IMG/VR virus record: IMGVR_UViG_3300036772_000333
Span: 1-56,983 of that record
Strand: one strand, 5' to 3'
Length of the DNA stretch: 56,983 bases
Source of the DNA: a virus
The notes beneath the pieces are model-generated. The model made no database searches and was not told the origin of the DNA. It saw nothing but the letters and a program-made list of their open reading frames with translations. Every line of letters starts with the position of its first letter. Position 1 is the stretch's first letter. The translations under genes were made by a program, and so were the position numbers. Shown here one piece after another: positions 9,068-56,196 of this stretch.

Positions 9068-9205
9068 ATGCACGATCCGAAGTGTTACGAATTAGCAGAA
9101 TACTTTTACCCCAATGAGAGCGGCGAGTTTCTTAACGAACTTGCTGAAGAAATACAGAGTCTTGTCGAATACCTCAACCCCAATAATCCGGAGAGTGAAG
9201 TATGA
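9068..9205 (+). CDS. Small acidic protein
   Basis: 45 residues, very acidic (ELAEEIQSLVEYLN), probably one helix pair. The ATG at 9068 follows directly after the TAA of the previous gene. The stop TGA overlaps an ATG at 9202. Function unknown. Confidence 0.5.
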   Translation: MHDPKCYELAEYFYPNESGEFLNELAEEIQSLVEYLNPNNPESEV

Positions 9206-9252
9206 CCCAAGAACTCCAGTCTGTACTGCGGACAAAAAAAGGAGAAAGTTCA

Positions 9253-10170: not shown

Positions 10171-10340
10171 AACCCACAGAGACTCAGGAATTGGTGATGT
10201 ACTGCGGCAAACAAGTCCATATTACTGAATTAGTAGAAGACATGCTGTGTTCAGGTGTTGCTCCCGAACAGGTAATTCAGCAGCTAGGACGGAGATTGAA
10301 TTTGAAAGAGTATTGGGATGCAAGGAAGGCGGCGCGATGA
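10167..10340 (+). CDS. Small hypothetical protein
   Basis: 57 residues. The ATG overlaps the repeat-protein stop as ATGA. It is a helical, mixed-charge sequence (ITELVEDMLCSGVAPEQVIQ.. then RRLNLKEYWDARKAAR). Its stop overlaps the next start again as ATGA. Function unknown. Confidence 0.5.
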   Translation: MKPTETQELVMYCGKQVHITELVEDMLCSGVAPEQVIQQLGRRLNLKEYWDARKAAR

Positions 10341-13700: not shown

Positions 13701-14318
13701 ATGAAAACTCTATTGTTAGTGCTGCTTCTCTGTGGGAGTCTGCAAGCGCAGTGCTCTAATCAGTATCCACTGCAACACGAGGGCACATGTAGGGCACCGT
13801 CCGCTCAGGTAGATGTGAGCAAGGACCATAAAATTGGCCTAACTGCAATTAAAAGAGATGGCATAGTGGCACTGACCTGTTATGACGTTCAACGTTCAAC
13901 TGTAATTTTACTGGGCTTTGATGGTAGGCCACTGACATTGAAATGTTTTATCGATGAAATCGGCGAGCAGTACTGGAGGTTCTATGCCGCACCTGAATGC
14001 ATTATTTGCATTCGCCCTCCAGATGGCTGCTACCTAGATGGAGTTTTCTATCCGGGGTGCGATGGAGGGTGGCCCATGCCTGGATTCTGGGACTGTCCTC
14101 GCTTGCTAGGTAGGGCTGGATGCCAGTTGAATGCCTTACCAATGTGCGCTGGTGGTTCGACGGCTTCGAACGAGCCTTGCACTCCTGCGGGCTATGGTTT
14201 TGAACCAAAAACGGCGGCTATTCCTGATTTGACTAAGCCTTCCTCTAAGCCGAATAAACAAACTCATTGTACCAGCCATCCCTATAGCCACCAGGCTACG
14301 TGCGAAAGGGAGAAATGA
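13701..14318 (+). CDS. Secreted cysteine-rich protein
   Basis: 205 residues. It has a textbook Sec signal (MKTLLLVLLLCGSLQAQC, cleavage after ..LQA). The mature part has about 20 Cys, many in the last 100 residues (CIICIRPPDGC, CDGGW, CPRLLGRAGC), and a Lys/Pro-rich end. Disulfide bonding in the periplasm is likely. It is the last gene of the small-gene operon and overlaps the convergent nuclease gene by 23 bases. A periplasmic effector, for example superinfection exclusion, is a reasonable guess but unproven. Confidence 0.6.
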   Translation: MKTLLLVLLLCGSLQAQCSNQYPLQHEGTCRAPSAQVDVSKDHKIGLTAIKRDGIVALTCYDVQRSTVILLGFDGRPLTLKCFIDEIGEQYWRFYAAPECIICIRPPDGCYLDGVFYPGCDGGWPMPGFWDCPRLLGRAGCQLNALPMCAGGSTASNEPCTPAGYGFEPKTAAIPDLTKPSSKPNKQTHCTSHPYSHQATCEREK

Positions 14319-19626: not shown

Positions 19627-19995
19627 ATGAAATTAGCCTCTATCCTACTCGCTGGCGCTCTGCTTGCCCCGTTGGGATGCAAGACTGCCAGCGCACCCGC
19701 CGCCCCTCCGGCACCCGGCTACCTCAACGCGCAGGATCAAATCATCGGACAGGCGCTTGCCTCGCTCGATACCTTCGTGCGACAGGCCACCGCCGACTAT
19801 GCCACCCTTACGCCGGCACAACAGGCTTCCGAGAAGTCGGCACTCAATAACATGGTGACTGCTGTCAACATCGCCAACTCGCTCTATCTTGCCTATCACA
19901 ACGGCACATCGACTGAAGCTCAGGCTCAAACAGCCTTGGTTACGGCGCAATCGGCTCAGACCAATTACACGAGTGTCGCGGGGGTAAAACAGTGA
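19627..19995 (+). CDS. Lipoprotein-like secreted protein
   Basis: 122 residues. The signal MKLASILLAGALLAPLGCK ends in a Cys, but the -3 residue is Pro, so the lipobox is imperfect. The mature part is Ala/Thr/Gln rich and helical with no further Cys. It is first in a three- or four-gene plus-strand operon under the regulated promoter. An envelope role such as outer spanin or exclusion lipoprotein is possible; not proven. Confidence 0.55.
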   Translation: MKLASILLAGALLAPLGCKTASAPAAPPAPGYLNAQDQIIGQALASLDTFVRQATADYATLTPAQQASEKSALNNMVTAVNIANSLYLAYHNGTSTEAQAQTALVTAQSAQTNYTSVAGVKQ

Positions 19996-22751: not shown

Positions 22752-25700
22752 TTACTGCAATTTGATGTTCCCACTAAACACAGTTTTGCCGCCTACAATG
22801 ATGGTTACATTGGTAGTTATAGTGTATGCCGCTGTCAAAACGGAGGAATTTGTTGAACCCGATTTCGTGGCTAAAGCCATAATGGTCAGGGAGGTGGTTA
22901 CAGGAACGGCCCCCGAATACGCTGTGCCATGCGTGCAGGTTCCGGCAGTGGTCGCCGTGGGAGTCGAGCCGTCTGTGGTATAGCAGATTGTCGCGCCACT
23001 TGTGGTTGAGGCCAGAACAACCGACTGAGCGCCGATATAGATGCCCGCAGGAGGCGTTGCTGTGGGTGTAGCGACTGTAGCACTGCCGGCAAACTGGAGC
23101 GCCCCCTGGGAGGGCGTGGAGGCCCAAGCAACACCAAGATAGTCCGTAGTCTGACCGGAGAGCGCTATTCCAGCAGAGACTGCCGGGGAGCTGCTGGAGA
23201 GGGCCATGTTGTAGTTGTCGAGAGCGGATTCTACGGAGATAGGAGTGGCGGGTTGGCTGGTGACTAGCGGGGAGATCGTAAGGTCATGCGCTCCAACGCA
23301 ATTTGAGGTTGCCGCCGTGTAGTTATAGCAGGTGTTGTAGTCCTCGAGAGAAGGACCAAGCTCGGGCCACATGTGAGGCGTAAGACCAGAGTTGTAGTTA
23401 GAATCCCCGTATCCGATGAAGACGTTATCTCTGTAGTCGGCAACATAGCCTGCCCCTAGATTGGGATTTACCTGATTCTGCGGAAACGCTGTCTGGACTT
23501 GGTTATCGAAGCTCTCAGAGTAGTTCACCAGAGTATTGTGGTAAATCTTCGCCACCGTGGTCGAGGCTGGCGTGGTTGGGACGATGACGAAGTAGGTGTT
23601 AGACGGGTTTGTAGGATAGGCCGAGCTGATCGTCCAGTGGGAGTTGTCGGTCTTTGTGGCTACGGTTCGGGCGTAGGTGTGGTAGTCGGAGGTGTCGGGG
23701 ATGAGGGTTTGGCCTACAGTGATTCCAGTAGTTCCCGAAGTTGAGGTGCAAGCGGTAGCCGTGCAACTAATATCTCTTGCGTAATCGCTGCTTGTCGAGT
23801 TGAAGACAAGGGTGGCGTTGGTATTGGAATTGACTCCATTAGCTGTTCCAGCGCGGCAATAGTCTGAAAGATTAGAGTTGAATCCAGACCCCATTCCCGT
23901 AATTGCCGCAGACATGCGATTGCATCCCGATACGATAATGTTATTGAAGACATTGACGGCCGTGTTAGGTCCGACTTTGATGTTTCCGCCGTTGTTGCCG
24001 TAGAAGAATCCATTGGTGAAGGTCTCCGTGCCGCCATGGGTGTGGCCCAAGTCTACACCATCCTGCGTGTTGTAGATGGCAAACATGTGGTCCGCAATCC
24101 AGTTGATCGGACCGGTTACGGGGGTGCCTACACCATCACCATACCCTCCGGTTGACTGTGATGTGCAAGCTCCTGAGCCGAACGGGATAGCATCCACCAC
24201 CGGGTATTCTTCGGCGCATCCGTTGAAGACAATTCCAAGGTAAGACGATGTGACGGTACCATTTGAAGCCTGACTTCCGCCCGGATCGAAGTCCCACCCA
24301 GCCTGACTATTTCCTTGGATAACGACTCTCGTAACGTTCCACTGGCCTCCGATATTGCCGAGAATCCCTCGCGACTGGAAGCCGTGAATCTTCATATCGG
24401 TGAGGTTGATGTCTGAATTGGTTGGAGTCGTAGAGTTGCCGGAGTAGATACCATAAGAGGCCCAATCGGTTCCGCTACAGGAAGGGCCGCCCGAAGCTCC
24501 GCAGGGAGAGTGATCGGAGAGGTCGATGCAGGCCATGCCGATATGCTGGGTGTCTTGGACGGAGAAGGCAAAGAAAGCTCCCGCGCCAGCCCATAGATAG
24601 GACGTATTCGCCGGGTCCGCGCCTTGATACTGATAGAGCGATGAAGTGGTGTTGAATGCCTGTTGAGTCGTATGGCATGACCCGAAGTGCTCTCCTTCAA
24701 GCATCGTGAGGTTGCTTGTACTGGTACCGGCCGGGAGTGCAGGAGGGGTGCAGGTGGTCCCGATTCCAGCGCAAGGGTTGCCGGCAGAGGAGTTCGATGA
24801 ACCGGCAATCTGGCATGGGCTGCTGGAGGTGCAGTTCTTGAAGATCACTGTATCGCCGCCGTTCATAACCCAAACGCCGGGGTTCTGGAAGTTCAGCCAG
24901 TCATCCCAGAGAGAGCGGGCATCGGCAAAGGGGCAGGATTGGTTATGCGCCCCACCTGAGTTATAGGCGGTGGTCGCGAGGCCGTTGCAGGAGGCCGCAG
25001 AAGGGGCTGCGGTACTGGTTCTTGGGCCGCCGTTCACGGGATCGACGTACCAGGTCAAGTGAATCACATACGCAGCCGTGAGCACCGAGGAATTTATATC
25101 GCCCGACAGCGTTCCGATGGCCTTGACTGTGGTCGAAGTGGAAAGAGTAAAGGGTGCGCTGTAGGTAATCGCTGGAGAGTCACAGGTTCCCGCAGTTGTG
25201 GCAGTCGGGGCTACTCCGTCGAGGCGATAGCAGATCGTGGCGCCGGAAGTCGTTGTTGCCAGCGTGATGGTCTGAATTGAGGTATACGTTCCGGCCACAG
25301 GAGAGGCAGTAGGAGTTGCTACCGTTGCCGTCGAAGGAAACTGATACGCGCCGTCATCCCAGGCCCCAGAGGAGGGAGCTACATTCCCGTCTGGATCGAC
25401 GTTATACGGTGAACCAAGATTGACCCCGATTGCATGAAGTACGGTTGAGTTCGACAGAAGATGCGCATCGCCTCCGGTTGCGTTGACGAAAGGGTTCTGC
25501 GTCGAGTTGTTGTAAGTGATGTTCCCGGTGCCGGTGGGGGCTGAGAATCCGCCGTAGGTGGTGTAGTTATAGGCATCGTGGTCGTTGGTGATGACCCCGC
25601 CCGTTCCGGCGTTCGGCAGCGAGTTCGAGACGTAGTAGAAGACGTTGTTTTGATTGATGATGTTGGTGAAGGTCGAGCCGTTGTCGGAGATAAAGGCGCA

Positions 25701-26627
25701 GTTCGAGGAGCATGGGCCGGTGTTCGATACGAAGGTGTTATTGACAATCACCACAGGGCCGTAGTTCGAGCCTGAGTTCTTGGTGGTCATCAGCGAGAAG
25801 GCCGAAGCGTAGATGTAGTTGCGATAGAAATAGTATCCCTTCATCCCGCCAAACTCAAAGAAAACACCGTCGTTCGGAGAGTTGAAGAAGGTCGTCCAGC
25901 GGACTGTGTTGTTGCCCGAAGGACCATCCGTGAAGTTGTAGATATAGTCTTCGTGGTCGATGCCATCGTTTGAGATGTCATGGAACGAAGAGTTTTGGAT
26001 GATCGTGTTCTGCCAGTTCGAGGTGCGCACCGTCTCTGACATGCTGCCGGCTTCTACGTGGTCCAAGAGTAGGCCGTCTACGATATTCGTGCTTGGGGCG
26101 ATATTGAATCCGTAAGCGCCGACAGAGCAATTACCCGCAGGAGCGCAGGCAGGGCCAGCCCCATAGACGTAGTGGAGCTCATCGCCGAGGATAGAGCGCG
26201 TGGTGGCTCCGGTGACCGTGTTCCCGCCGCCTGCTGGCGTGGTGATCGTGATGCCCCTGCTGACACGCCCGGAGACAACGTTATAGTCTCCATTGATAAC
26301 GAAGGTGGGCATATTGACCGTTGCGTCGAATGAGGAGTTCCAGCCCGGAGAGGCAACGGGTACGGAGTCCGTCGCAAGGACGCGGTTGAAGGTAAGCTTA
26401 GCGCCCGAAGTGCAGACCTTGGTCATAGGTAGGGCCGTTGTATAGGTACCCCCGGCGATCCAAATGGTGTCGCCGCAGGCTACCGTCGATACATTGATGG
26501 AGGAGAGCGTTGGCCATGCTGCACTCCATGAAGTCCCGGCCCCAGTTCCCGAAGATTGGACATACCAATTCGATCCCATCGCTGGTAGCGTGAGCAACAT
26601 CAAGAGGGGGAGGATGAGTTTCTTCAT
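22752..26627 (-). CDS. Secreted double beta-helix protein with chitobiase-type modules
   Basis: 1291 residues. Sec signal MKKLILPLLMLLTLPAMG. Residues ~20-430 and ~525-1185 read as right-handed parallel beta-helices (rungs with N, G, V, I and stacked Asn). Two copies of a ~80-residue module with a TTSGATICY core, at ~435-520 and ~1190-1275, match the chitobiase C-terminal fold. The end (TIIVGGKTVFSGNIKLQ) is a short strand cap. It is last in the minus-strand operon of large fibre-like proteins, so a receptor-binding or glycan-degrading spike is likely. A Sec signal on such a protein is unusual. Confidence 0.65.
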   Translation of the reverse strand: MKKLILPLLMLLTLPAMGSNWYVQSSGTGAGTSWSAAWPTLSSINVSTVACGDTIWIAGGTYTTALPMTKVCTSGAKLTFNRVLATDSVPVASPGWNSSFDATVNMPTFVINGDYNVVSGRVSRGITITTPAGGGNTVTGATTRSILGDELHYVYGAGPACAPAGNCSVGAYGFNIAPSTNIVDGLLLDHVEAGSMSETVRTSNWQNTIIQNSSFHDISNDGIDHEDYIYNFTDGPSGNNTVRWTTFFNSPNDGVFFEFGGMKGYYFYRNYIYASAFSLMTTKNSGSNYGPVVIVNNTFVSNTGPCSSNCAFISDNGSTFTNIINQNNVFYYVSNSLPNAGTGGVITNDHDAYNYTTYGGFSAPTGTGNITYNNSTQNPFVNATGGDAHLLSNSTVLHAIGVNLGSPYNVDPDGNVAPSSGAWDDGAYQFPSTATVATPTASPVAGTYTSIQTITLATTTSGATICYRLDGVAPTATTAGTCDSPAITYSAPFTLSTSTTVKAIGTLSGDINSSVLTAAYVIHLTWYVDPVNGGPRTSTAAPSAASCNGLATTAYNSGGAHNQSCPFADARSLWDDWLNFQNPGVWVMNGGDTVIFKNCTSSSPCQIAGSSNSSAGNPCAGIGTTCTPPALPAGTSTSNLTMLEGEHFGSCHTTQQAFNTTSSLYQYQGADPANTSYLWAGAGAFFAFSVQDTQHIGMACIDLSDHSPCGASGGPSCSGTDWASYGIYSGNSTTPTNSDINLTDMKIHGFQSRGILGNIGGQWNVTRVVIQGNSQAGWDFDPGGSQASNGTVTSSYLGIVFNGCAEEYPVVDAIPFGSGACTSQSTGGYGDGVGTPVTGPINWIADHMFAIYNTQDGVDLGHTHGGTETFTNGFFYGNNGGNIKVGPNTAVNVFNNIIVSGCNRMSAAITGMGSGFNSNLSDYCRAGTANGVNSNTNATLVFNSTSSDYARDISCTATACTSTSGTTGITVGQTLIPDTSDYHTYARTVATKTDNSHWTISSAYPTNPSNTYFVIVPTTPASTTVAKIYHNTLVNYSESFDNQVQTAFPQNQVNPNLGAGYVADYRDNVFIGYGDSNYNSGLTPHMWPELGPSLEDYNTCYNYTAATSNCVGAHDLTISPLVTSQPATPISVESALDNYNMALSSSSPAVSAGIALSGQTTDYLGVAWASTPSQGALQFAGSATVATPTATPPAGIYIGAQSVVLASTTSGATICYTTDGSTPTATTAGTCTHGTAYSGAVPVTTSLTIMALATKSGSTNSSVLTAAYTITTNVTIIVGGKTVFSGNIKLQ

Positions 26628-26634
26628 ATATCTC

Positions 26635-27366
26635 CTAGTTGCTCTTTAGCGCGACGATGAAGCCTAGGCCGAAGTCAGTTGTGGAGAGAGGGATAGTCGC
26701 TGTCTGTGTTCCTGTCGAGGTGACGGGCTTCCAGTAAAATCCGGTGGTATTGCGTGAGGCGCTGGACTGTTGGGTGAAGCCTGCAAGAGCACCCCACGTC
26801 TGTCCGGCATTGAAGACCTGACAGACAGCAATAACCAAGTCGTTTGCATTGGCTGTCGCGGAGGTCGTTCCTGTTGAGCAACTGGTTGAGGTCGTTGCTT
26901 GGATATTCGTTGCCGTCTGATCGGTGAAGGATGAGTTCCACGTATTCGTCGTATGGAACGCAATCGCCTCGATATCGGTAAATGTTCCATCCGCTCCGGT
27001 CCACGTCGCTACCGGAATGTTCGCCCCCGTCGTTGTGATGATGCATCCAGAGATAGCTGTGATGAAGTGCCCAGAACCGTTGAGCTGGAAGGTCGCTGCG
27101 CCGGGAGCAATGATTGCCGTGGGGGTGCAGGAGGCTGTGCCTGAGAACGTGAAAGCAACGGTTGAAGTATTGACCGTGGAGGAGCTTTTCGAGATAAGGA
27201 TCAGCAGATCACCAACCACCCCAGAACCCCCAAGAGTGCAGTTCGTAGTGGCTGCGGAGGCGTTATTGACGCAGACTGCGGAAGACGCCGTGATTGTCGG
27301 CGCGCTCGAACCAAAGCTCCTCCTTCCCGGTCCGGGGAAGGGAACCTGAAGCAACAGCCCGATCAT
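26635..27366 (-). CDS. Fibre-like domain protein
   Basis: 243 residues from ATG 27366, just after the stop of 27378-29258. A short hydrophobic start (MIGLLLQVPFPGPG) could be a weak signal or a membrane tether. The rest is beta-rich with many Thr, Ser and Ala and several Cys (VCVNN, NCTLGG, SCTP, GCII), ending FGLGFIVALKSN. It resembles receptor-type or secreted beta-sandwich domains. It sits between two larger fibre candidates. Confidence 0.55.
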   Translation of the reverse strand: MIGLLLQVPFPGPGRRSFGSSAPTITASSAVCVNNASAATTNCTLGGSGVVGDLLILISKSSSTVNTSTVAFTFSGTASCTPTAIIAPGAATFQLNGSGHFITAISGCIITTTGANIPVATWTGADGTFTDIEAIAFHTTNTWNSSFTDQTATNIQATTSTSCSTGTTSATANANDLVIAVCQVFNAGQTWGALAGFTQQSSASRNTTGFYWKPVTSTGTQTATIPLSTTDFGLGFIVALKSN

Positions 27367-27377
27367 GAGCAGAACTC

Positions 27378-29258
27378 TCACCGGGTGATACTCCAGTTGA
27401 TCGAAACCGCTCCGGGCGTGATGGAGGAGGCGGTGGGGTTGCACACCTTCAGATTGAACGTATTCGCCGTGGGCCACGTGTAGATCGCCAGGCCCCCGGC
27501 GGTAACAGGGGCATATCCCGTCACGGCGGTGATATCGGCGTTCGGCGTAAAGGTGATGGTATCGGTCGAGGCTGCTCCTGTTGCTGTAGCGGTCTGAGCG
27601 GTTCCGCAGACGCCGGAGCTGATCGCACCTGTGGCGAGTGCGAGAGTTCCGCTGGCGATCGTCGCTGTGCCTCCGGCGCCCCAGGAACATATACTCGGGG
27701 CAGTCGCGGTGCAGGTGAAGAAGGTTTGGCCGGCTGTCGGGGCAGTGCCGGGAAGTTCGATCCGATAGGAAGTCACCGACGAAGGAGCTTCCACCTGTAC
27801 TGAGTTTGCGGGAACGCCACTCGGTGAACTGCCTGCGGTAAGGTCAAAGAAGCCGCTCACTGAGCTTACCGCGCTAAAAGAAGCTGCGGTCACGTTTCCT
27901 GCGCCATCCGTGGAACAGTTTGGATCAACCTTACTATCGACTCCTCCATTGCCGATGACGCAGTGGAGAGAGGTCATCGAGCCGGTTGAAGCGGTGCCGA
28001 TCAGGACGCCGTTGATGTTCGAATTGATCCCTAGATCAACAGGAGCCTGAATGGTCATCGAAGCGAGGCCGGTTCCACCTCCGATGGTCGTCGGACTCCA
28101 GACGAAGTTAGAGGTTGGGCTGGTTCCGGTACCAATAGAGATATTGGCATTCCAGGTTATCTGGCCGACTCCAGTTCCATTCCAATACTCTGCTCCCCAG
28201 GCAATGCCGCCCGAATCGAAGTTGCCCGACGAAGAGGTCGGGTCGGTGGAGGGTCCGGTGATGATGTTAATCCCTACTAACCCAGAAATCACAGGGCCGA
28301 GGAATAAATTGCCGCCAGAGGTATAGACTCCATTGCCGGCATGAATCACTCCCGAAGCGTCTCCACTCGTTCCGTTACCGATAGCGAGTATTCCGGGGCT
28401 GGCCTGACTTAGCCCAAGCGTCGGCGTCGTGCTGATGGCCGAGGCTGATGCCCACCCAAGGATAGAGTTGCTGCTCAAGATCGTATTCGGTCCATTCAAA
28501 CACCAGGGAGCATCGCCGGTATTCCCATTGAGCGAACAGAACTGCCCTGCAATTCCGCCTCCCGCCGACCCAATTGCGAGGAGAAAGTAGTCCGAGGAAG
28601 ACGATGGATTCTGAAGCTCGAACGCCGTATTAGCGAGTGAGTTTGAGGAAAGCCTCATCGAAAGGTTCGAGGCGTTCCCGTTGAATACGTTGGTCCCGAT
28701 AAAGGTCTGATTCGCAGCAAGGAGGGCGACATTCGACGGAACGATTCCAGAGTCTGCGGCATTTCCTGACCCGTTCCCGGCGAGCAGATTCGTTGTGCTT
28801 GGAATACTCCCGCCGCCACCGCTGGCAGCGATGGTGATCATATTCCCGCTTGGCGTAAGAGTTATATTCGACCCCGCAGCCAGTGTCACGGCTCCCGTCA
28901 GGGAGTTGAGCGAAGCCACCCCCGCCGCTGACCCAATCGCTGCCCATTGCGTGGGGCTGCTGGATGGGGAGTGGTTGAGATTCCCCGGCACCAGCGAGAT
29001 ATATGTCGATCCCCCCGAGGTCACGAACTGGCCTGGGAGGTAGGTAACGGTCGAACTCCATGCCCCTTTGTAGGTCTGCGAGAGAGTATCAATCGCATTG
29101 GTGTTGGCGTTGATGGGGATGTCGTAACGGAGATAGTTGAAGGGAATCACGTTGAGGTTGAGGTTCGGGGTGCAGGTAATACCGCCCGTGGGGGTGCAGG
29201 TTTGCGCGGCGGCGGAGCCGACGGAGAGTGCGAGGAGGAGGGTAATTTTACGTATCAA
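27378..29258 (-). CDS. Secreted tail-fibre-like protein
   Basis: 626 residues from TTG 29258, chosen because GGAG lies six to seven bases before it and a clean Sec signal then starts (IRKITLLLALSVGSAAAQT). Around residues 100-150 a fibre-type segment appears (VASLNSLTGAVTLAAGS, ITLTPSG), as in many phage fibres. Later parts are Ser/Gly/Thr-rich repeats, ending in a beta domain (PGAVSINWSITR). Likely trimeric fibre; the secretion signal is odd for a fibre. Confidence 0.6.
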   Translation of the reverse strand: MIRKITLLLALSVGSAAAQTCTPTGGITCTPNLNLNVIPFNYLRYDIPINANTNAIDTLSQTYKGAWSSTVTYLPGQFVTSGGSTYISLVPGNLNHSPSSSPTQWAAIGSAAGVASLNSLTGAVTLAAGSNITLTPSGNMITIAASGGGGSIPSTTNLLAGNGSGNAADSGIVPSNVALLAANQTFIGTNVFNGNASNLSMRLSSNSLANTAFELQNPSSSSDYFLLAIGSAGGGIAGQFCSLNGNTGDAPWCLNGPNTILSSNSILGWASASAISTTPTLGLSQASPGILAIGNGTSGDASGVIHAGNGVYTSGGNLFLGPVISGLVGINIITGPSTDPTSSSGNFDSGGIAWGAEYWNGTGVGQITWNANISIGTGTSPTSNFVWSPTTIGGGTGLASMTIQAPVDLGINSNINGVLIGTASTGSMTSLHCVIGNGGVDSKVDPNCSTDGAGNVTAASFSAVSSVSGFFDLTAGSSPSGVPANSVQVEAPSSVTSYRIELPGTAPTAGQTFFTCTATAPSICSWGAGGTATIASGTLALATGAISSGVCGTAQTATATGAASTDTITFTPNADITAVTGYAPVTAGGLAIYTWPTANTFNLKVCNPTASSITPGAVSINWSITR

Positions 29259-29291
29259 TGGCAACTCCAATTGATCCGGTAATAGCAACTC

Positions 29292-32200
29292 TCACTTATC
29301 ATTGACCCATGCCCCCGCAACACAAACATAAAAAGTGCTTCCTGTGGTCCCGGCTGTATTGCTGAAGAGCGACCCATTAGCACAGGAGCCGGTTGGCGCT
29401 GAAGCTCCTGTAGTCCAGAAGACTGTAGCCGTGGGGCCGATCTTCGAAGCATAGAGCTGAGCTAGGCCATCTCCAGAGGTAGACCCGTCCGCGCTGATAA
29501 TTCCATCGGTATGCTGGCTGAACCCGGAGGTGAGCAAAGGAATAGAATTTACCGCGAAGGTATCGTTTTGCGTAAACCTGAACCCTCTGCCTGCACCATT
29601 GACGATATCCGCTCCCGCTATCCATGGCCCTGCAACCGAGAACGGACTTACGCCGGTAAGCGGAGAAGTTCTGGTCCCGATATCGTCTACATGGGATGCA
29701 TTGCTCGCGCATGGCCCTAAGTCATAGCTTTGATTTCCTACGAACGTCCAGATTTCGCCCGTTATGCCGGTAGGCAAAAGCGAGCATGAGACTCGGTTGA
29801 GGTTTGTGCCGCTCAGGGTCGCGTTGCCATTACGGATATCTGTAGTCTTTGTCCATGTAGAGCCATCGGGGAAATTAGCCTGTAGCTGGTAGATATACTC
29901 CGAAGTGCCCGGAGTTCCGATAACCGTAACCTGCGGTGTTCCAACACCTAGATAGTTGTCATATCCCAGAGTTCCCGTAGGCTGTCCGGGGCTGATATCA
30001 CGTATTGCATAGGTCTGGACGTTAGTAAACCCTCCCAGGAAAGAGCTAGCGGTAAATATCTCTTCCGGCACAGAGATTGGAATGTGAAAGTCGTTCTCAA
30101 CTGTATTCAGCGATATAAGAGAGTTATTTCCGTTGACCCAATCGTATTGAACAGAGACGTTGTTCCACTTCAACCCGAAGTTTCCTGACGCCAGAGAGAA
30201 TATGAAAAAGTTCTGTAGTCCCGGCTGAGGAGAACTTCCTGATATATTTCCGATGCAAAGCGCACATCCATTGTGAACCGGAGCGGAGTCCATAACAAAG
30301 CCGCCCGAATAAGGTTCATTGCCGGCTAGCTCCACGCCAACAGGGGGATTCATCACGCCTCCAGCCCCGATGACATGGAACTGATCGAACATGTTATTGA
30401 AGACCTTCAGCGCTACCGAGCTTGAGGCAGAGTAATTGCTAAGGTTGATCTCAAGAGCCTCCTGAGCTTCGGCTCCCGGTGTAATCAATTCCATCGACAT
30501 ACGGTTCTCAATAGCTTTGAGAGAGGAGTTAGGACCCGCGTAGAAGTTATCTCCTGCCTGAAATAGCGGAGATAGGTACGAAGTCGCCATGTGCCCTGAG
30601 TTAAGAATTCCTACCGGCTGAACTCCGGGAGTTTGGTCTGCTGTGTTGTAGATTTCTACGGCAGGGAACAGGGATGCCGCCAGGTAGTTGAAAGGAAGAC
30701 GTACAGATGTGGTTCCATCGGCGCAACTTGTGTCAGCCCCGGATTGGACGAGGGAATAAACGCCATCGGTTGAAGAGGTAAAAGGATGTGGCTGCTCTCC
30801 GTTGACGGTAGCGTCAGGACATCCAATGATTCGGATATGGTTTTGCAGGATAATTCTGTCCGCCTGTGGGCCAGCATTGGTATTAATTTGCAGTGTAAGA
30901 ACGCCACCAACTCGCTGTACATTATTGGCAAGATAGGTTCCACCCGCATTGCCTTCTCCAGGAACGCCGGTAAAGGATGCTTCTGTGAAAGCCTGGCTAC
31001 CGTTCTGCGGTCCGCCACGCCATTGCTGGCCAGCCGCATAAACTGCCACGCCAACTGAGTTGTCGCTACCGGATACCAGCACCGGCTCCAGGCTTCCCAG
31101 CGCTAACCCTTGAACCGTAGTCGAGTCTGCGTTCAAACTGATCGCGGTACCGCAAGCCCCGCCCTGAGCCGCAATTGTGGCCGTTCCTGATGCGGGAACG
31201 GTGCGATTGAGGAGTGCGGTAACTACCTGATTACCGCTTCCGTCAGGCGCGGTGATTGCAGTTACTTGAACGCCGAAGGCCATCTGATTGCCGCTAGTGG
31301 CCCCAAGACATAAACGCCCTACTCCATCGGGGGCCGATCCTCCCGATACCGTGAATGGGGAGGTGTTGGAATGCACTGTAAAGCTAACCGAGGTTACAGT
31401 CCCATCCTGCGTAGGAACGTCTGCGGTAGTCACAAGATAACCAATGGCATAGCTAACAGGAATCGCCTCTGTGGCGGTCCCTCCTGAAGATGTGGCCGAT
31501 CCAGCCAGAGCATAGGTCAAAGTCGTTCCGGTTGAGGCCAGAATCGTAAACGTTCCGTTGAATACGGAGTTTGAAACCCCGGCGATATTCACCTGACCGC
31601 CAGGAGTTGGATTCTGAAAGGTCAATCCAGGAGGCGGTGTGAATGTTGCTACAGCCGTTCCGCCTGAACTGGTGATGCTGGTGATGGGGAGAGTAGGAAA
31701 GTCAAAGACGATTGTCGGAATGTAGGGAGATGGGCTATGCGAATCGCCGCCATCGAAACTATGCGCCATCAACTGCAAATCTACAATAGGCTTGCTGACA
31801 TCGATGCCGATCTGTCCAATACCGGCGATTCCTCCACTTTGCGTGGACGGAGCTATTAGATGATAGGAGTCCGTAACCGAAGTGATCGGGCCGAGAAGAG
31901 CAATGGGGCTTCTGAAATGATGCCCTTCGTCATAGCAGCCTTCATCTGAAAAGACCAGCCATCCGCCATTGCAGTAGGTGTAATAGTAGTGTCGGATCTG
32001 ATCCCCGATACCCAACATAAAGGTTTGGGTTGTCGATCCTTTAATTCCTTCACTGACGAAGTAGTTCGTGATGTCTTGAAACTGCGCCAAGGACCATCCA
32101 AAGGAACTGGTATGGGTTGTGGCTGTACCGCCCGATGAAGACGTATTCGCGCCAGAGTTACTATAGGAGATAGAGTTTCCAGAGATCGCCGTGACTGGAG

Positions 32201-33596
32201 AATTAGCAGTATTGAAGCTGGAGTCGGTTACGCCCGCGACTACAATCGGCAATCCTACTTGAGCGAGCAATGGTGTCGCGGTTGTGACGGTAGCCACATT
32301 GCCGGTTCGAGAAACAGCAGTGAGGGCAACCTGTCCTCCCGTCGTCTCTGTCGTCCCGAAATTATGACTACCTGCGGCCCAGATATTGAACTGATAATCG
32401 GGCACCTGTTCGCCTCCCTGGAGAGGACCAGGATTGGGAAAAAGGAAGGCGCTTCCATGCGGATGTGTTGTCTGGAATTGATAGCCAGTGAACGACGACG
32501 GCATGACATTGGTTGCGAACTGCCCATCAGAATTAGCGCGCTTATCGGCGAGAAAAGATGAGACGTTATTCGCTGTCATGGGAAGCATGTTGCCCTGTTC
32601 GGTGTCTCCCGATGTTGGCGGAGTCTCTAGGGTGCACATCGTCAGACTGCAGTTTGCCTGCGCGTTGGCAATACCATTATTGCCACCACCAGAGATGAAT
32701 AGGTCGGTGTTTGATATGCCCTGAAGGATGCCCGTCTGGCAGTTTGTGGTGAGCGCACACGGAAATCCCCCGCCGGAGGTGCTGCTGTTGTAGGTCGCGA
32801 CGACTCCCCAATTTCCGTTCAATGGGCCGTTCAGCGTGACGGATTCGTAATCGTTATTGAGGACATAGCTGCTCTGTCCGGAAATCGTTATTCCCATCGC
32901 GCTTGGGAGGATCGTTACGGTGTGCCCGTCGGCCAGTCCTCTTTGTATCGAGTAGTACCCCTGCACCGTGGGAGGCAGCGTGATGGTGATGTTTTGATTG
33001 TTCGCTTGCGTACTCACGCTGATAAAACTGTTTGCGTTTGTTCTGCCGTCGTTGATGACGAGATCGCTGGTCACAGGCGGGCCGGGAGACAAGAATAGGG
33101 TTCCCGTCAAAACGAGGACCGGTGCTATAAATCCAACCTGTGTCCCTCCAACGACTCCGAATGTGGTCCCGGTAGGCTGGTTGATGATCTGATCCGAGGT
33201 CGGGTTCAGAAGGACATCCCCACCACCACCGCCACCTCCACCGCCGATACAGATGTTCGGGATCGTCGTCGGCGTCATACCCTGCCCCGACATGACAACG
33301 TCGTAGCACACGTTCCCCGACGCGAAGAAGCCGAATAGCGCCGTCTTGGTATCCCCTGTGAATGGGTTTGTGAGCGCCCCTCCTCCGGCCGTCGAGAAGA
33401 TCGTCGATAGCGTTACCGTACCGGTGTTGTATACGGTCACCGTACAGCCGGGAACTGCGCTCTCCTGGTAGTTGGTTGAGGCGAGGCCAGAGACCAGAGC
33501 TTTCGTCGCGCCCTGGGTGCATAGGCCGTTATACCGGAAGTTCTGAGCAAACGCCGGAGCTGTGAGCGCCAGCAAAAGAAAGATGAGGCGCTTCAT
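29292..33596 (-). CDS. Large secreted spike/fibre protein
   Basis: 1434 residues from ATG 33596 (GGAG seven bases before; ATGA overlap with the previous stop). Signal MKRLIFLLLALTAPAFAQ. The N-terminal ~110 residues look like a separate beta domain. A run of nine Gly near residue 120 then leads to long beta-structured sequence, with helix-type rungs and several Ser/Thr/Gly repeats. The end (STFYVCVAGAWVNDK) resembles a C-terminal fibre cap. Probably the main receptor-binding spike. No catalytic motif is certain. Confidence 0.65.
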   Translation of the reverse strand: MKRLIFLLLALTAPAFAQNFRYNGLCTQGATKALVSGLASTNYQESAVPGCTVTVYNTGTVTLSTIFSTAGGGALTNPFTGDTKTALFGFFASGNVCYDVVMSGQGMTPTTIPNICIGGGGGGGGGDVLLNPTSDQIINQPTGTTFGVVGGTQVGFIAPVLVLTGTLFLSPGPPVTSDLVINDGRTNANSFISVSTQANNQNITITLPPTVQGYYSIQRGLADGHTVTILPSAMGITISGQSSYVLNNDYESVTLNGPLNGNWGVVATYNSSTSGGGFPCALTTNCQTGILQGISNTDLFISGGGNNGIANAQANCSLTMCTLETPPTSGDTEQGNMLPMTANNVSSFLADKRANSDGQFATNVMPSSFTGYQFQTTHPHGSAFLFPNPGPLQGGEQVPDYQFNIWAAGSHNFGTTETTGGQVALTAVSRTGNVATVTTATPLLAQVGLPIVVAGVTDSSFNTANSPVTAISGNSISYSNSGANTSSSGGTATTHTSSFGWSLAQFQDITNYFVSEGIKGSTTQTFMLGIGDQIRHYYYTYCNGGWLVFSDEGCYDEGHHFRSPIALLGPITSVTDSYHLIAPSTQSGGIAGIGQIGIDVSKPIVDLQLMAHSFDGGDSHSPSPYIPTIVFDFPTLPITSITSSGGTAVATFTPPPGLTFQNPTPGGQVNIAGVSNSVFNGTFTILASTGTTLTYALAGSATSSGGTATEAIPVSYAIGYLVTTADVPTQDGTVTSVSFTVHSNTSPFTVSGGSAPDGVGRLCLGATSGNQMAFGVQVTAITAPDGSGNQVVTALLNRTVPASGTATIAAQGGACGTAISLNADSTTVQGLALGSLEPVLVSGSDNSVGVAVYAAGQQWRGGPQNGSQAFTEASFTGVPGEGNAGGTYLANNVQRVGGVLTLQINTNAGPQADRIILQNHIRIIGCPDATVNGEQPHPFTSSTDGVYSLVQSGADTSCADGTTSVRLPFNYLAASLFPAVEIYNTADQTPGVQPVGILNSGHMATSYLSPLFQAGDNFYAGPNSSLKAIENRMSMELITPGAEAQEALEINLSNYSASSSVALKVFNNMFDQFHVIGAGGVMNPPVGVELAGNEPYSGGFVMDSAPVHNGCALCIGNISGSSPQPGLQNFFIFSLASGNFGLKWNNVSVQYDWVNGNNSLISLNTVENDFHIPISVPEEIFTASSFLGGFTNVQTYAIRDISPGQPTGTLGYDNYLGVGTPQVTVIGTPGTSEYIYQLQANFPDGSTWTKTTDIRNGNATLSGTNLNRVSCSLLPTGITGEIWTFVGNQSYDLGPCASNASHVDDIGTRTSPLTGVSPFSVAGPWIAGADIVNGAGRGFRFTQNDTFAVNSIPLLTSGFSQHTDGIISADGSTSGDGLAQLYASKIGPTATVFWTTGASAPTGSCANGSLFSNTAGTTGSTFYVCVAGAWVNDK

Positions 33597-34597
33597 CGCC
33601 ATGCTCCGATCCCACCCATATTCGCGCGCCCAATCTGGCTATTAAAATACGGCATTCTGCATCCACCCATGTAACTGTTCATGCTGAGGTTATACGAGTC
33701 AACCTGATCCTTATCGATCAACCGCAATGTCTTGAGTCGGGATAGGAACTCCGCTTCTCCCTCTTTCTTCAGTGCGCTGTAGTTGGCACCGGAACCCTTG
33801 GCAGCCATCACGTCCTTGCGCGATTCAGCCCACTCGTAGGCGTAGACGCGCGCCTTGGTGAGAACTACGTCCTGCGTGATCGGATACGGCAGCGTGTCGG
33901 AGTTATTGACCAGGACCGGAGCATCCGCTACATAGTACGTCTGGTAGCTGATCTGCGTTGACGGGTTCGGGTACAACTCATAGAGCATCTGGCCAAAGGT
34001 CGATGATCCGGCACGCATGTCGGTCCCGAGCGGCAGGAGGCTATCGGGATTCGACGTATAAAGCCGAGCCGGGTCCCACTGATTCACATCGCGCCTCGAA
34101 GTCCATATATCCATCGCCCAGCAGTTGAACATGTCAGCCACGTTGAGCCACCTCTTGAACCTGGGAGGAGCCGCGATGTACGCCTGAAACATCTGGTACT
34201 CATTGCCCGCAAGAAACGGCAGCGGATCGACGAAGTTACGGTCTAATGTCAGGATGACAGCCGTAGGGTCCGTCGCGTCCATCGCCACAATGGAGTAAAT
34301 CGAGTAGCCGGTGATACGGATTTGTTGGAGCGTCGTCTGCCAGTACAGGGGCAGTGCCAGCCATGCTGCAGAAGCCACCGCGTCTCCCACGAGAGTGTTC
34401 TGTCCCAGCCCGGTGACCGTAACGCTGCCGGCCGTGGTAATATTCGGTGTCGAGAATCCGCCTTGTCCAAGCTGAAAGGACCAGAGGTTGGAATCCTGCA
34501 CGACGCGCCAAGCCCGGTTGATCAGTGTACCAGCGTAGATTCTACTTAAACCGGGTATAGCCTCAGAAAGTTCTGCTTTCATGTCTAGGTAGGACAT
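33593..34597 (-). CDS. Head-tail connector or neck protein candidate
   Basis: 334 residues from ATG 34597, which has a G-rich AGGGGGG site before it. The N-terminal ~35 residues are a short helical domain (MKAELSEAIPGLSRIYAG, then LINRAWRVVQDSNLW). The middle is beta-rich and the C-terminal ~100 residues are helical and charged (YALKKEGEAEFLSRLKTL-like). It stands between the capsid genes and the spike genes, where podovirus adaptor or tail-tube A proteins occur. Family not recognised with certainty. Confidence 0.5.
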   Translation of the reverse strand: MSYLDMKAELSEAIPGLSRIYAGTLINRAWRVVQDSNLWSFQLGQGGFSTPNITTAGSVTVTGLGQNTLVGDAVASAAWLALPLYWQTTLQQIRITGYSIYSIVAMDATDPTAVILTLDRNFVDPLPFLAGNEYQMFQAYIAAPPRFKRWLNVADMFNCWAMDIWTSRRDVNQWDPARLYTSNPDSLLPLGTDMRAGSSTFGQMLYELYPNPSTQISYQTYYVADAPVLVNNSDTLPYPITQDVVLTKARVYAYEWAESRKDVMAAKGSGANYSALKKEGEAEFLSRLKTLRLIDKDQVDSYNLSMNSYMGGCRMPYFNSQIGRANMGGIGAWR

Positions 34598-36288: not shown

Positions 36289-37509
36289 CTACCCCTTTAT
36301 TCCGTAGCACTGCTGATGACGGCGCGGTGTCGGGGTATAGAAGTTGAGTGCGTGACGCAGGAACTGTGTGTAGAGCGTCGGGTTCTGTGGATACCGGATG
36401 GGGTCCATCATGTGGTAGTTGAATGATCCAGTATCCGCCGGACGATACTTCCACGACTCCACATCGATCCAGAACAGCGGCTCACCGACCACGATCGTAT
36501 TCAAGCCTCCGGTCAGGAGAGGAGTCGCGTTCGAGGTGAATCCCAGGTTGGGGAGGTTGCTGGTTCCCTGGTTCGCCAGCATCGCCTGCGTGATCTGGAA
36601 CTGACCCGTCTGGATAGCCCCCGGAGTGGGCGCGGTACCGTCCACCGTGGTAAAGAGGTTGGCAATCGACTGCTTTGGGTTCGAGGAAGGAACGATATCG
36701 TCATTGAAGATCGTCGCATCCTCAAACTTGATGCCCGACCAATTGATATTTTGGTCGTCGCGCGTCTCATACCGCTGCTGGCGCTGGAATGCGCTGGCAA
36801 TCGCTGAGTAGCCAATGTAGGAGGTGACGCCAAGCGTCGGACGACCAATCGGCGTCATATAGGTCTTCAGCAACTCCTGATAGTTCGGAGGAGCCGGATT
36901 CCCCGAGGCATCCCCGAGCCAGATCGGAATCGAATTCAACGCCGCGCCAATCGCTCCGTTGCGGGTCTGGCCGGAGTAGGTCGGAAACACGTTGCTATCC
37001 CATGAGGGGGTAACCCCATCGTTCATGGCCTCCGAGAATCCGCTGATCGAAGCAAGCCGATTGTCCGAGACCCCGTTCCCGGCTGCCTGCCCATGGCGGA
37101 ACATATCGCCCTCAAGCTGGAAGTCGATACCTTCCATCATCTGTTCCATGTAGGCTTCGAGGATGTTGACCCGAGCCTCAGAACCGGTATTCAGCACCTC
37201 CAGCGAGAACTCTTCCACCAGAATGAACTTGGTGTAGAGCTTTGGGCTGAAGAGGCCGGCAGTAATCATCTGGACGCGGTTGACCGTTACGTCCTGACCC
37301 GGATAGATCGCTCCACCCTGCGCGCCCTGATACAACTGCGGAAGCTGCATCGCAGCGCCGCCGCCAAACGGGTCGTAGGCACCCGAAGCGCGGAAATACC
37401 GCTGCATCGGCGTCGAAATGTAGCTGTTCTGGTAAATGTACCCGTCGATGATCTCGTTTACCGTAGTCGCCGGTACTTCGGGGAATAGCGGTCCAAATGG
37501 AGCTGCCAT
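36289..37509 (-). CDS. Major capsid protein
   Basis: 406 residues, AAGGAG before the ATG. It follows the scaffold gene and precedes the decoration gene in the usual order, and the size is right for an HK97-fold capsid protein. It has a helical N-arm (EIIDGYIYQNSYI), a long central helix (EARVNILEAYMEQMMEGIDFQ) and a beta-rich end. It does not resemble any lineage strongly enough for me to name. Confidence 0.8.
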   Translation of the reverse strand: MAAPFGPLFPEVPATTVNEIIDGYIYQNSYISTPMQRYFRASGAYDPFGGGAAMQLPQLYQGAQGGAIYPGQDVTVNRVQMITAGLFSPKLYTKFILVEEFSLEVLNTGSEARVNILEAYMEQMMEGIDFQLEGDMFRHGQAAGNGVSDNRLASISGFSEAMNDGVTPSWDSNVFPTYSGQTRNGAIGAALNSIPIWLGDASGNPAPPNYQELLKTYMTPIGRPTLGVTSYIGYSAIASAFQRQQRYETRDDQNINWSGIKFEDATIFNDDIVPSSNPKQSIANLFTTVDGTAPTPGAIQTGQFQITQAMLANQGTSNLPNLGFTSNATPLLTGGLNTIVVGEPLFWIDVESWKYRPADTGSFNYHMMDPIRYPQNPTLYTQFLRHALNFYTPTPRRHQQCYGIKG

Positions 37510-39152: not shown

Positions 39153-41258
39153 CTATCCCGATGTACTGACTACCGGCCTTCCGCCGCCGGCCATGCCCTT
39201 TTGTTTGACCTTCGGAGCCTTTTTATTTGTGGCAGGTCGTCCCGTCTTGCCTGGACCCTCTTCCGGCGGCGGTGCCAGCCCCAAAGCCTTCTCCAGTTTG
39301 GCGATATCCGCCTTCTCGGTAAGCTGCTCCTTGGCCCAATTGAAGACCTTTTCCTTTACCGTGGAACCTTCGATACTGCCCCAATTGGGGATGTCGAAGG
39401 CGGTTGCCATCGTCTCCGGGTCGATCACGACACCCTTGCTCGTAGCCGCCAGAAGATTAAGCTTGTACGCCTTCTGTGCAATATAGTGCAGAGAGTGCGG
39501 CGTGATAAAGAAGCGGATGTTTTTAGCGAACGCCTTCGCCCGCGACATCGGATCGGCAGTAGACTCCTGCGACTGGCCCATCGCGTCGATCGTCGTCTCC
39601 CCCGGCAAGTGTGAGGGGATCAGCATGTCGGGGGCGTAGTCGAAGACTTCGGGAGCCATGCCCGTAGCACCGACATACTGCATCGTCCGGCGCGTCGTCA
39701 GGTACTGGATGATGAGGTACTTCATCATCTCGCCCAAATCGCGTAGGCCCATCTCCATCGAACGCGAGGTGCCGACAACCACCGGACCTTCGGCGTCCAG
39801 CAGCTTCTCGGGGTCTTCGACATTGGCCTTCAGTTTTTGAAGTGCTTGGATCTGATCGAGTCCGAGTTGACGCATGATCGAGGCTTGCAGGAACTCGACC
39901 ACCTTCATCACCCATTCCGGCACGTTGTAGCACCACTCCGGCATGGGAGGGCGCATCACTGGTTCTTTCGTGTCTCCGTCGACGCCGAAGGTTGCATTTG
40001 GATCGAAGGGGTCCATCTGCTCGGCCTGACGCGAGGAAATCTTCCCATTTTTGTCGCCTGTTGTGATATCGGTGTTGTAGCTCTTGCCGGGATTGGCGCG
40101 AGACATCGCAATCCGGTACACCGAGCGCACCAGGTCGTCAATCGCATCCTGCAACGCCACGGTACCCCGAAACAGCGAGTATCCTGTTCCTTCCCATGCC
40201 CAATCATCCAGATAGAACGGGATGAGCGGCACCATGCCGTGGAGGTCGAAGGCGGGACCGTCATACATGAGCGCTGCATCACAGGAGATCATCAACCGGC
40301 GCTGTGGATACACCCGGCAGTCGTCTTCGGTAGCCGCGCGCGTCACCTGACGACCATCCTCGAACCGCGTGATCATCTGCCCTACGAACGGCACCGTATA
40401 CGACCAGCTCGTGCCTTCCTGCCCCATCTTCAACTCTCGCCCGATGGGGTTTCCGGCTTCATCGAGGATTGGCTTCCCCTTCTCGTCTACATCACCATAG
40501 TTGATGCGGAGGTCGAGGATGTACGAATAAAAGATGTCGGTAAACTGTTCAAGCTGCGTTTCGATGGAATGCATCCGCCATCGGTTCTGGTCATATCCTT
40601 TCCGCTGCTCGCCGCCTCGCGTCTTGCCGTATCGCTTGGTCGCAAACGGATGCAGATACTGCTGAAACATCGGGAACCGCGCATGAGCCTCGGCAATGCC
40701 CATCGGAATCGCCAGTGTGACGATATACGCCTTCTGATAGTTGCGGCTCCGCGGGAGTTGGACCGGCAACACGTCCGGCTGGCCGAGCGCCATGAAATTG
40801 AACTCGCCCTCACCCATACCGAACATCCCGCGCGAGTAGAACGGATACAGGAACCCGCCACCCGTGACAGAGGCAAACTGCAACGCGTCTCTGAGGGAGC
40901 GGTCCACGAAGGATTCCAGGTAGATGCTCTTGGTAACCTTGTTGAGCATGTTCGCTTCGTCACGGAAGGCATCGTTATCGGTCTGGTACCCCCAGAACGG
41001 GCGAATGTCCGCCAGAGTCTCAATAATCTCCCGGACAGCGCGCTTGAGGTCGCCGGTGGTGAAACTGGCCCATTTCCCGGTGAGTTGGCTGCCCGACTTT
41101 CCGGCAAGCGTGTCGATGCCCCGGCGGATATCCTCGGAGGAGGTTTGCTCCTCGTTCCACTTGATGCCGCTCTCGATAGCCTGTCGGCAGAAGGCAAGCT
41201 TCTTATCGTCGGGAGCTTCGAAGACCGGGGCTTGCCAGGAGACTTCGTTCTGTTTCAC
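39153..41258 (-). CDS. Portal protein
   Basis: 701 residues from GTG 41258 (GTGA overlap). The length fits large podovirus portals of the P22 type. Typical features: helical N-terminus with RRGIDTLAG and RDALQFASVTGGGFLYPFYSRG, a central domain with a long helix near residues 450-480, and a Lys/Gly-rich C-terminal part with KTGRPATNKKAPKVKQKG. Gene order terminase, small gene, portal, scaffold, capsid is standard. It forms the 12-subunit DNA gate at the head vertex. Confidence 0.8.
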   Translation of the reverse strand: MKQNEVSWQAPVFEAPDDKKLAFCRQAIESGIKWNEEQTSSEDIRRGIDTLAGKSGSQLTGKWASFTTGDLKRAVREIIETLADIRPFWGYQTDNDAFRDEANMLNKVTKSIYLESFVDRSLRDALQFASVTGGGFLYPFYSRGMFGMGEGEFNFMALGQPDVLPVQLPRSRNYQKAYIVTLAIPMGIAEAHARFPMFQQYLHPFATKRYGKTRGGEQRKGYDQNRWRMHSIETQLEQFTDIFYSYILDLRINYGDVDEKGKPILDEAGNPIGRELKMGQEGTSWSYTVPFVGQMITRFEDGRQVTRAATEDDCRVYPQRRLMISCDAALMYDGPAFDLHGMVPLIPFYLDDWAWEGTGYSLFRGTVALQDAIDDLVRSVYRIAMSRANPGKSYNTDITTGDKNGKISSRQAEQMDPFDPNATFGVDGDTKEPVMRPPMPEWCYNVPEWVMKVVEFLQASIMRQLGLDQIQALQKLKANVEDPEKLLDAEGPVVVGTSRSMEMGLRDLGEMMKYLIIQYLTTRRTMQYVGATGMAPEVFDYAPDMLIPSHLPGETTIDAMGQSQESTADPMSRAKAFAKNIRFFITPHSLHYIAQKAYKLNLLAATSKGVVIDPETMATAFDIPNWGSIEGSTVKEKVFNWAKEQLTEKADIAKLEKALGLAPPPEEGPGKTGRPATNKKAPKVKQKGMAGGGRPVVSTSG

Positions 41259-55554: not shown

Positions 55555-56196
55555 CTAGTAAACTGCTCCATTGTAAGCCTGAGCCGAGGGTGTCAGCCCG
55601 AGAGTCAGTGCCGTGCAAAATTGTGGGGTTACCGTATTCGCAGCACTCACGAAACACTGTGGTTGCACATTGGAAGGCTGCGTCCCGCCCGCACCGCTCA
55701 TCGTGCAGGACATGCCTGTGGTCGCGCCAGGTACCGTGATGGGTGTCTGGTTCGCACAGCCCAGCGTAATGAGAGCGCCGCCAATGTTTCCCGTAACAAA
55801 CTTGATCGGAGAGCTGCCCGCTGCGCCGGTGGCTCCTTGGGGTCCGGTGGCCCCGGTAGCCCCGGTATTTCCTGTTGGACCCTGAGCGCCTGTAGGGCCA
55901 GCCGGTCCGGTGGCTCCCATCATGCAATTGGAGTCCGCCGGCACCCACTGCAGTGCGGAGTTCTGGCAGAACAATGCAACCGCCGGGGGTGGAAAGTTGG
56001 CGGCCTGCCCTGTACTGGTCGTCGTCAGGGGAGTCCAGCCGTCTCCGGCGAAGGTAAAGGCTCCGACGGGGCTGGGGTTGGAGATGTTCTGCGCGACTCC
56101 ACGAAACAGGATGGCCGACGCCGATAGAAGCACGAATAGAAGCGAATAATTCATCATTCGTTTCATGAGCACTTGCTGCTGAGCGATACTCAACAT
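55555..56196 (-). CDS. Secreted collagen-like virion protein
   Basis: 213 residues from ATG 56196 (AGGAG about eight bases before). Hydrophobic signal in residues ~15-35 (YSLLFVLLSASAILFRGVAQ). Residues ~93-130 are a collagen-type G-x-y run (GATGPAGPTGAQGPTGNTG) followed by ATGAAGSSP. The end is beta-rich with several Cys (NQTPITVPGATTGMSCTMSG). It resembles collagen-repeat fibres found in phage tails, here again with a signal. Confidence 0.6.
   Translation of the reverse strand: MLSIAQQQVLMKRMMNYSLLFVLLSASAILFRGVAQNISNPSPVGAFTFAGDGWTPLTTTSTGQAANFPPPAVALFCQNSALQWVPADSNCMMGATGPAGPTGAQGPTGNTGATGATGPQGATGAAGSSPIKFVTGNIGGALITLGCANQTPITVPGATTGMSCTMSGAGGTQPSNVQPQCFVSAANTVTPQFCTALTLGLTPSAQAYNGAVY

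Follow-up and report, generated by a model that had tools for sequence, protein, structure and literature searches.

Fibre proteins of the window open with Sec signals

The IMG/VR virus record IMGVR_UViG_3300036772_000333 (56,983 bp) of a soil phage, analysed whole and hereafter called the window, carries four genes for fibre-like proteins of 1434, 626, 1291, and 213 amino acids (aa), the last of which is collagen-like. The predicted products of all four open with a signal peptide (SP) of the Sec pathway. Conserved cleavable signals, a virion-attachment domain placed behind the signal, and paired cysteines led us to favour, on balance, the explanation that the large fibres and spikes are virion adhesins, which would be exported by the host Sec system, matured in the periplasm, and docked on the particles at lysis. 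The ends of the record share a 127-bp terminal repeat, and the record is probably a complete circularised genome; its host is presumably a terriglobial acidobacterium. The 626- and 1291-aa proteins were called fibres from their gene position and from counterparts annotated in the Tunturi phages described below.

The signals were evaluated with a self-written scorer (log-odds for the n-, h-, and c-regions with -3/-1 preferences). Eleven classical E. coli and phage signal peptides scored 9.3-20, and the four fibre genes of the window scored 13-18. When 191 open reading frames (ORFs) of the window (at least 80 aa, read from the first start) were scored, five passed a threshold of 12, i.e., three of the four fibre genes, a 205-aa gene, and a lipoprotein gene; the 626-aa gene did so when read from its TTG start further downstream. 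Among the presumed non-gene ORFs of the window, the highest score was 8.4, and no signal score was obtained for the major head protein, the tail gene, and a conserved 271-aa fibre-like protein spanning the record ends. Each of the four fibres has a positively charged n-region, a hydrophobic h-region, and a cleavage site of the A-x-A type recognised by signal peptidase I (SPase I) at its true start. Chance hydrophobic N-termini were ruled out by the control ORFs of the window and by the control phages (see below).

The preliminary description had reported Sec signals at the start of these four proteins, and all four were recovered where it had placed them (Table 1). It had also named translation starts behind the signal among the findings that would refute it. 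Such a start is very unlikely. Shine-Dalgarno (SD) sequences with sensible spacing precede the signal-bearing starts, i.e., AGGAG for the 1291-aa and collagen-like genes and GGAG for the TTG of the 626-aa gene and the ATG of the 1434-aa gene (7 nt before the latter). The first in-frame start behind the signal with any SD is codon 79 in the 626-aa gene and codon 169 in the 1434-aa gene; in the 1291-aa gene, no SD-bearing start follows the first one among the starts listed to codon 188.

The preliminary description understated the case, since three further window genes carry export signals. They encode a 205-aa protein (13701-14318, + strand) with about 13 cysteines and no family match, a 158-aa coiled-coil protein (6177-6653, - strand) with a sub-threshold OmpH/Skp-like match (E=9e-5), and a lipoprotein (19627-19995, + strand). 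The coiled-coil protein could be spanin-like, or it could serve the exported fibres as a chaperone in the periplasm. Small genes similar to the lipoprotein gene are present in the genomes G006 and G010 and in Tunturi_1 (39529-39912, - strand); these genes share a lipobox and a recurring Ala/Pro-rich APG motif, and they possibly encode an outer spanin.

The signals are kept among diverged relatives and cultured isolates

The preliminary description had proposed to check relatives for the same signals. We recruited 24 IMG/VR loci with a profile of the 1434-aa N-terminus. The signal was present in 22 loci, one of which (L074) scored only 6.6 and was judged by eye, and absent in two. The mature domains behind the signals are only about 35-50% identical. 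The signal sequence itself varies freely among the homologues, while its charge, hydrophobicity, and cleavage-site pattern are kept. Viral scans with the full-length 1434- and 626-aa proteins gave no matches; the alignment of the N-terminal domain did work.

The signals were also found on the large fibre and spike genes of the cultured Tunturiibacter phages Tunturi 1, 2, 4, and 5, which represent three unrelated lineages. Tunturi_1 and Tunturi_2 (PP887698, PP885685), podoviruses of Tunturiibacter psychrotolerans (Acidobacteriota, Terriglobia) (PMC11924767), are the isolates closest to the window phage. Their genes after the tail gene follow the window order, and gp12, gp13, gp14 (annotated as tail spike in Tunturi_1), and gp17 start with a Sec signal. 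Over much of its length, their gp12 shows homology to the 1434-aa protein, and their gp17 is a homologue of the 1291-aa protein, whereas the major capsid proteins are only 28% identical to that of the window. The proteins were deposited as tail, structural, or hypothetical ones, and gp13 of Tunturi_2 as 'tail fiber protein'; the term 'signal peptide' is absent from the text of the Tunturi paper (PMC11924767). The signals of Tunturi_1 and Tunturi_2 are too alike for selection on them to be judged.

In the siphovirus Tunturi_4, which is unrelated, signals were found on gp113, on gp114 (a further counterpart of the 1291-aa protein), and on gp111 when read from an upstream start. The GenBank start of gp111 (80433) omits this SD-bearing start, which adds the Sec signal (80076-83171; L050:30076-33171); the protein has 12 cysteines after the signal from the upstream start and 9 from the annotated one. 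In the jumbo myovirus Tunturi_5, gp337, gp338, gp341, and gp342 bear signals, and gp337, gp341, and gp342 are annotated as 'tail fiber'. A search for SP-less relatives of a second N-terminal type (Tunturi_5 gp337) gave chance-level matches only.

In the controls Serratia MTx, crAss001, Cellulophaga phi38:1, and the T7 late region, none of the 47 ORFs of at least 300 aa carried a signal. The lack of an export signal that is standard for cytoplasmic fibres was thus seen in these controls, but not in the window fibres. The predicted signals thus accompany large fibre genes in a number of phage lineages of Acidobacteria, but neither phages generally nor every acidobacterial phage.

A virion-attachment domain lies behind the signal of the 1434-aa protein

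The mature proteins of the 1434-aa family begin with a domain of about 100 residues, which AlphaFold modelled well, with a pLDDT (predicted local distance difference test) of 82. The best Foldseek matches of the domain in the PDB were the Pam1 tail machine and the Pan3 tail complex, with the P22 tail complex lower. The hmmsearch of the domain retrieved the Pan3 'Tail spike protein' (E=1e-5) and the Pam1 'Tailspike head-binding domain' (E=0.011). The identity between the window domain and its counterparts in Pam1 (7eeq), Pan3 (9vyg), and P22 (9jg6) is about 20% or less; the three tailspikes belong to cytoplasmically assembled phages. By alignment, a homologous domain was found in the tailspikes of Serratia MTx/MyoSmar, E. 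coli ECO1230-10 and Alux-21, Klebsiella KA2-1, and Pseudomonas Orimi01. In contrast to the window protein, these tailspikes start at the domain (MELKTFFAQD..VPGATVTVYL) and have neither a signal nor the cysteine pair described below. Based on alignment, modelling, and the fold and profile matches, we assign the first mature domain of the 1434-aa protein as a tailspike head-binding domain of the P22/Pam1 type.

An attachment domain right behind the signal favours exported virion fibres over ordinary secreted enzymes. The preliminary description had read export as outer assembly, surface display on infected cells, or secreted decoys. Its export part is well supported by the conserved signals, the residues behind the cleavage site, and the cysteines; among its outcomes, the attachment domain favours joining of the particle after export. 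No head-binding domain appeared in the Pfam and PHROGs output for the 626- and 1291-aa proteins, on which the head-binding profile was not run. The T7 tail family PF03906 gave no match, which carries no information.

Cysteines of the fibres are even in number and linked to the signal

Cysteine parity was counted on proteins of at least 300 aa clustered at 40% identity. An even number was found in 30 of the 36 SP-bearing clusters (p=3.5e-5), compared to 71 of the 136 SP-less clusters, and the cysteine density of the former was twice that of the latter. All 15 fibres of the window, Tunturi_1, Tunturi_4, and Tunturi_5 have even counts (window, Table 1; Tunturi_1, 20, 10, 20, and 32; Tunturi_4, 12, 8, and 20; Tunturi_5, 18, 6, 14, and 12). 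Cysteine density alone was rejected as a mark of export, since it is unspecific and the SP-less MTx tailspike is cysteine-rich; parity and covariation were used instead.

In the attachment domain, C26 and C51 (1434-aa numbering) covary, as both were present in 18 loci, neither in 12, and the second cysteine alone in 2 (p=4e-7). With the hand-read loci added, the pair occurred in 22 of the 29 SP-bearing homologues and in none of the 9 SP-less ones (p=7e-5). Such covariation and its link with the signal would be the pattern expected of a disulphide made outside the cytoplasm. Parity and the SP-linked pair together point to real export and disulphide formation. A motif, APTGxC...Y.C..GxW, recurs in SP-bearing fibres, near the C-terminus of the window 1434-aa protein and in the loci L068, L075, and L076; it is probably a second disulphide-linked unit.

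The residue after the predicted cleavage site resembles that of host-lineage signals

With the unweighted scorer, 23 of 65 phage signals (35%) had glutamine at the predicted +1 position; for a plasmid of Granulicella tundricola, the count was 17 of 56 (30%). With a +1-weighted scorer, the share of glutamine was about 51%. The predicted +1 residues of the phage signals match those of signals from the presumed host lineage, which counts in favour of export. The plasmid, pACIX901 (L100-L119), may have a Q-rule-like preference of its own, as its predicted SPase I substrates reached 52% glutamine with the weighted scorer. The best-known preference for +1 glutamine is the Q-rule of the Bacteroidetes (PMC5837995), and Acidobacteria are absent from the text of that paper. 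Phages of Porphyromonas gingivalis (proposed Nixviridae) encode five Q-rule proteins of unknown function (PMC10367356). They are phage-encoded SPase I substrates following the host preference for +1 glutamine, as the window fibres would; however, they were not reported as tail fibres (PMC10367356).

Gene layout and other features

The 1434-aa gene is the first gene after the tail-tube-like gene. A 248-aa gene separates the 626-aa gene from the 1291-aa gene; its product has a hydrophobic N-terminus (MRVLLMIGLLLQVPFPGPG) with a weak signal score of 4.1 and was not counted as SP-bearing. In the slot of the collagen-like gene, G004 encodes another SP-bearing protein of 132 aa and G005 one of 674 aa; none was found there in G001, G002, G009, and G011.

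Table 1. Coordinates of the fibre genes, their predicted signals, and neighbouring genes in the window. A slash marks the predicted cleavage site.
Feature	Position	Strand	Remarks
1434-aa SP-bearing fibre/spike	29292..33596	-	20 Cys in mature protein; homologue of Tunturi_1/2 gp12
Sec/SPase I signal of 1434-aa protein, MKRLIFLLLALTAPAFA/Q	33546..33596	-	score 18.2
Tailspike head-binding (virion-attachment) domain of 1434-aa protein, with Cys pair C26/C51	33222..33545	-	alignment, AlphaFold, Foldseek, hmmsearch, Cys covariation
626-aa SP-bearing fibre	27378..29258	-	10 Cys in mature part; counterpart of Tunturi_1/2 gp13
Signal of 626-aa protein, MIRKITLLLALSVGSAAA/Q	29205..29258	-	TTG start; score 15.0
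1291-aa SP-bearing protein	22752..26627	-	two C-terminal CHB_HEX_C_1/Fn3_assoc stretches; 28 Cys in mature part
Signal of 1291-aa protein, MKKLILPLLMLLTLPAMG/S	26574..26627	-	score 13.7
213-aa collagen-like SP-bearing fibre, ...LFRGVA/Q	55555..56196	-	6 Cys in mature part
248-aa gene	26635..27381	-	GTG start with SD; 6 Cys
334-aa putative tail tube/adaptor gene	33593..34597	-	no SP; position of Tunturi_1 gp11 'tail protein' (synteny)
Major head protein	36289..37509	-	no SP, 1 Cys; internal control

Elsewhere in the window, a block of glycosyltransferase-like and methyltransferase-like genes lies at 45481-51668 (+ strand). The first glycosyltransferase gene of G004 and that of G011 have the SP-bearing spike gene as a divergently oriented neighbour. 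A 322-aa ORF at 9202-10170 (+ strand) contains long YADAYAA repeats with two frames open at once, the second frame (9752-10228) encoding LMLMLM repeats.

Discussion

Tailed-phage particles are thought to be assembled in the cytoplasm. For the window phage, we consider it most likely that the host Sec system exports the fibre and spike chains instead. SPase I would cut the signal at A-x-A, mostly exposing a glutamine, and the chains would then fold, trimerise, and form disulphides in the periplasm, where they may be stored while particles filled with DNA take shape in the cytoplasm. The pools of fibres and particles would mix once the inner membrane is opened by lysis, and the spikes would dock on the tail via the N-terminal head-binding domain, before or just after the burst. 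Preformed spikes dock on finished particles outside cells in P22, and so do T4 fibres, a point for which our literature search found no source. The gain may be disulphide-hardened fibres for acid soil. Export of the fibres is well supported by the sequence features; that they join the virion after export is suggested by the attachment domain.

A possible but clearly less probable explanation is that the proteins are exported and work off the virion, either as surface-displayed or secreted receptor blockers, which would prevent superinfection or keep progeny from being lost to debris, or as free polysaccharide-degrading or adhesive proteins that open the extracellular matrix. The signals and cysteines speak for export alone, and several domains would suit such a role: CHB_HEX_C_1 is present in the 1291-aa protein and in its Tunturi_1 counterpart, which also has a weak beta-helix match, and both a GDSL lipase and a lectin-like domain occur in Tunturi_5 gp342. 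Moreover, the tailed phages of Porphyromonas encode secreted Q-rule proteins of unknown function (PMC10367356). However, the 1434-aa family has its head-binding domain directly behind the signal, inspection of the C-termini by eye revealed no anchor or barrel for the outer membrane, the window genes directly follow the tail gene, and all large fibre genes found bear signals. If they all worked off the virion, the virion would retain only the small 271-aa fibre. The 1291-aa protein could nevertheless act off the virion even with the 1434-aa protein as a virion spike, and the window may mix both kinds.

The three remaining explanations are unlikely. The signals may be relics of captured host secretory genes, or may be tolerated because the chains fold and trimerise too fast for export, with assembly staying cytoplasmic. 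CHB_HEX_C_1 domains are common in terriglobial secreted proteins, and gene capture could carry a signal along. We consider this improbable, as 22 of 24 diverged homologues and three phage lineages unrelated to each other have kept the signals. These stand on several fibres that are not homologous, their cleavage sites are intact, and they go with even cysteine numbers and an SP-linked cysteine pair. In addition, neither a cellular nor a prophage donor appeared in a plasmid tblastn or in two genome-contig scans of 85k species, the scans being weak because they used exact peptide patterns only. It is somewhat less probable still that the hydrophobic stretch remains uncleaved as a docking peptide anchoring the fibre in the tail. 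The stretch is located exactly at the virion-proximal end, but its freedom to vary with charge, hydrophobicity, and cleavage pattern kept is that of cleavable signals, the SP-less homologues dock without it, and the cysteine pattern would stay unexplained. Least credible of all is an artefact of gene starts, in which translation begins after the signal-like codons. Nothing was found in its favour except the later annotated start of Tunturi_4 gp111, where the upstream SD-bearing start gives the even cysteine count; the positions of the SDs in the window speak against it, and a later start in the 1434-aa gene would remove the conserved domain.

Several points weigh against exported virion fibres. 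To our knowledge, tailed-phage assembly with exported fibres is without precedent, and fibres set free would be diluted at lysis. The SP calls come from a home-made scorer. Tunturi_3, a podovirus that infects the host strain of Tunturi_1, manages without signals on its fibres, and none of its 25 ORFs of at least 300 aa carries one. Regarding the cysteines, the complete pair is missing in 7 of the 29 SP-bearing homologues, the SP-less MTx tailspike has 11 cysteines, Tunturi_2 gp14 has 21 over the whole chain including the signal, and the relatives counted are not fully independent. The SP-bearing proteins of the Granulicella plasmid have no bias towards even numbers (19 even, 21 odd), so parity marks these fibres and not export generally. 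None of the proteomics and fractionation terms looked for occurs in the text of the Tunturi paper (PMC11924767).

Signal peptides on phage proteins are known from other settings, as pIII and pVIII of the filamentous phage M13 and Llp of phage T5 are made with them. Like the window fibres, M13 pIII is a receptor-binding virion protein with a signal peptide and disulphides; however, M13 assembles at the membrane, and pIII is not a tailed-phage fibre. T5 Llp is a signal-bearing receptor blocker, but it is a non-virion lipoprotein and likewise not a tailed-phage fibre. The open-access literature yielded no account of fibres of tailed phages that regularly bear Sec signals, most subscription journals and preprints lying outside this coverage. 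Spikes and attachment domains are already known; their placement behind an export signal is the new element.

We hold with about even confidence the wider model that tailed phages of Acidobacteriota, whether podo-, sipho-, or myoviruses, assemble in two compartments. The capsid and tail core would be made in the cytoplasm and the receptor-binding fibres, with their disulphide bonds, in the periplasm, and the two would come together at lysis. Such a mode of assembly is not known to have been described for the Caudoviricetes. The cultured phages Tunturi 1, 2, 4, and 5 make the exported-fibre model directly testable. If it is true, the rule of wholly cytoplasmic tailed-phage assembly would have an exception in phages of a very common soil phylum, the fibres could be reached in the periplasm ahead of lysis, and recombinant fibres of acidobacterial phages would need an oxidising compartment to fold. 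Tail fibres determine which bacteria a phage infects, and a signal peptide together with an even number of cysteines would then be markers for receptor-binding proteins and for host guesses in soil viromes.

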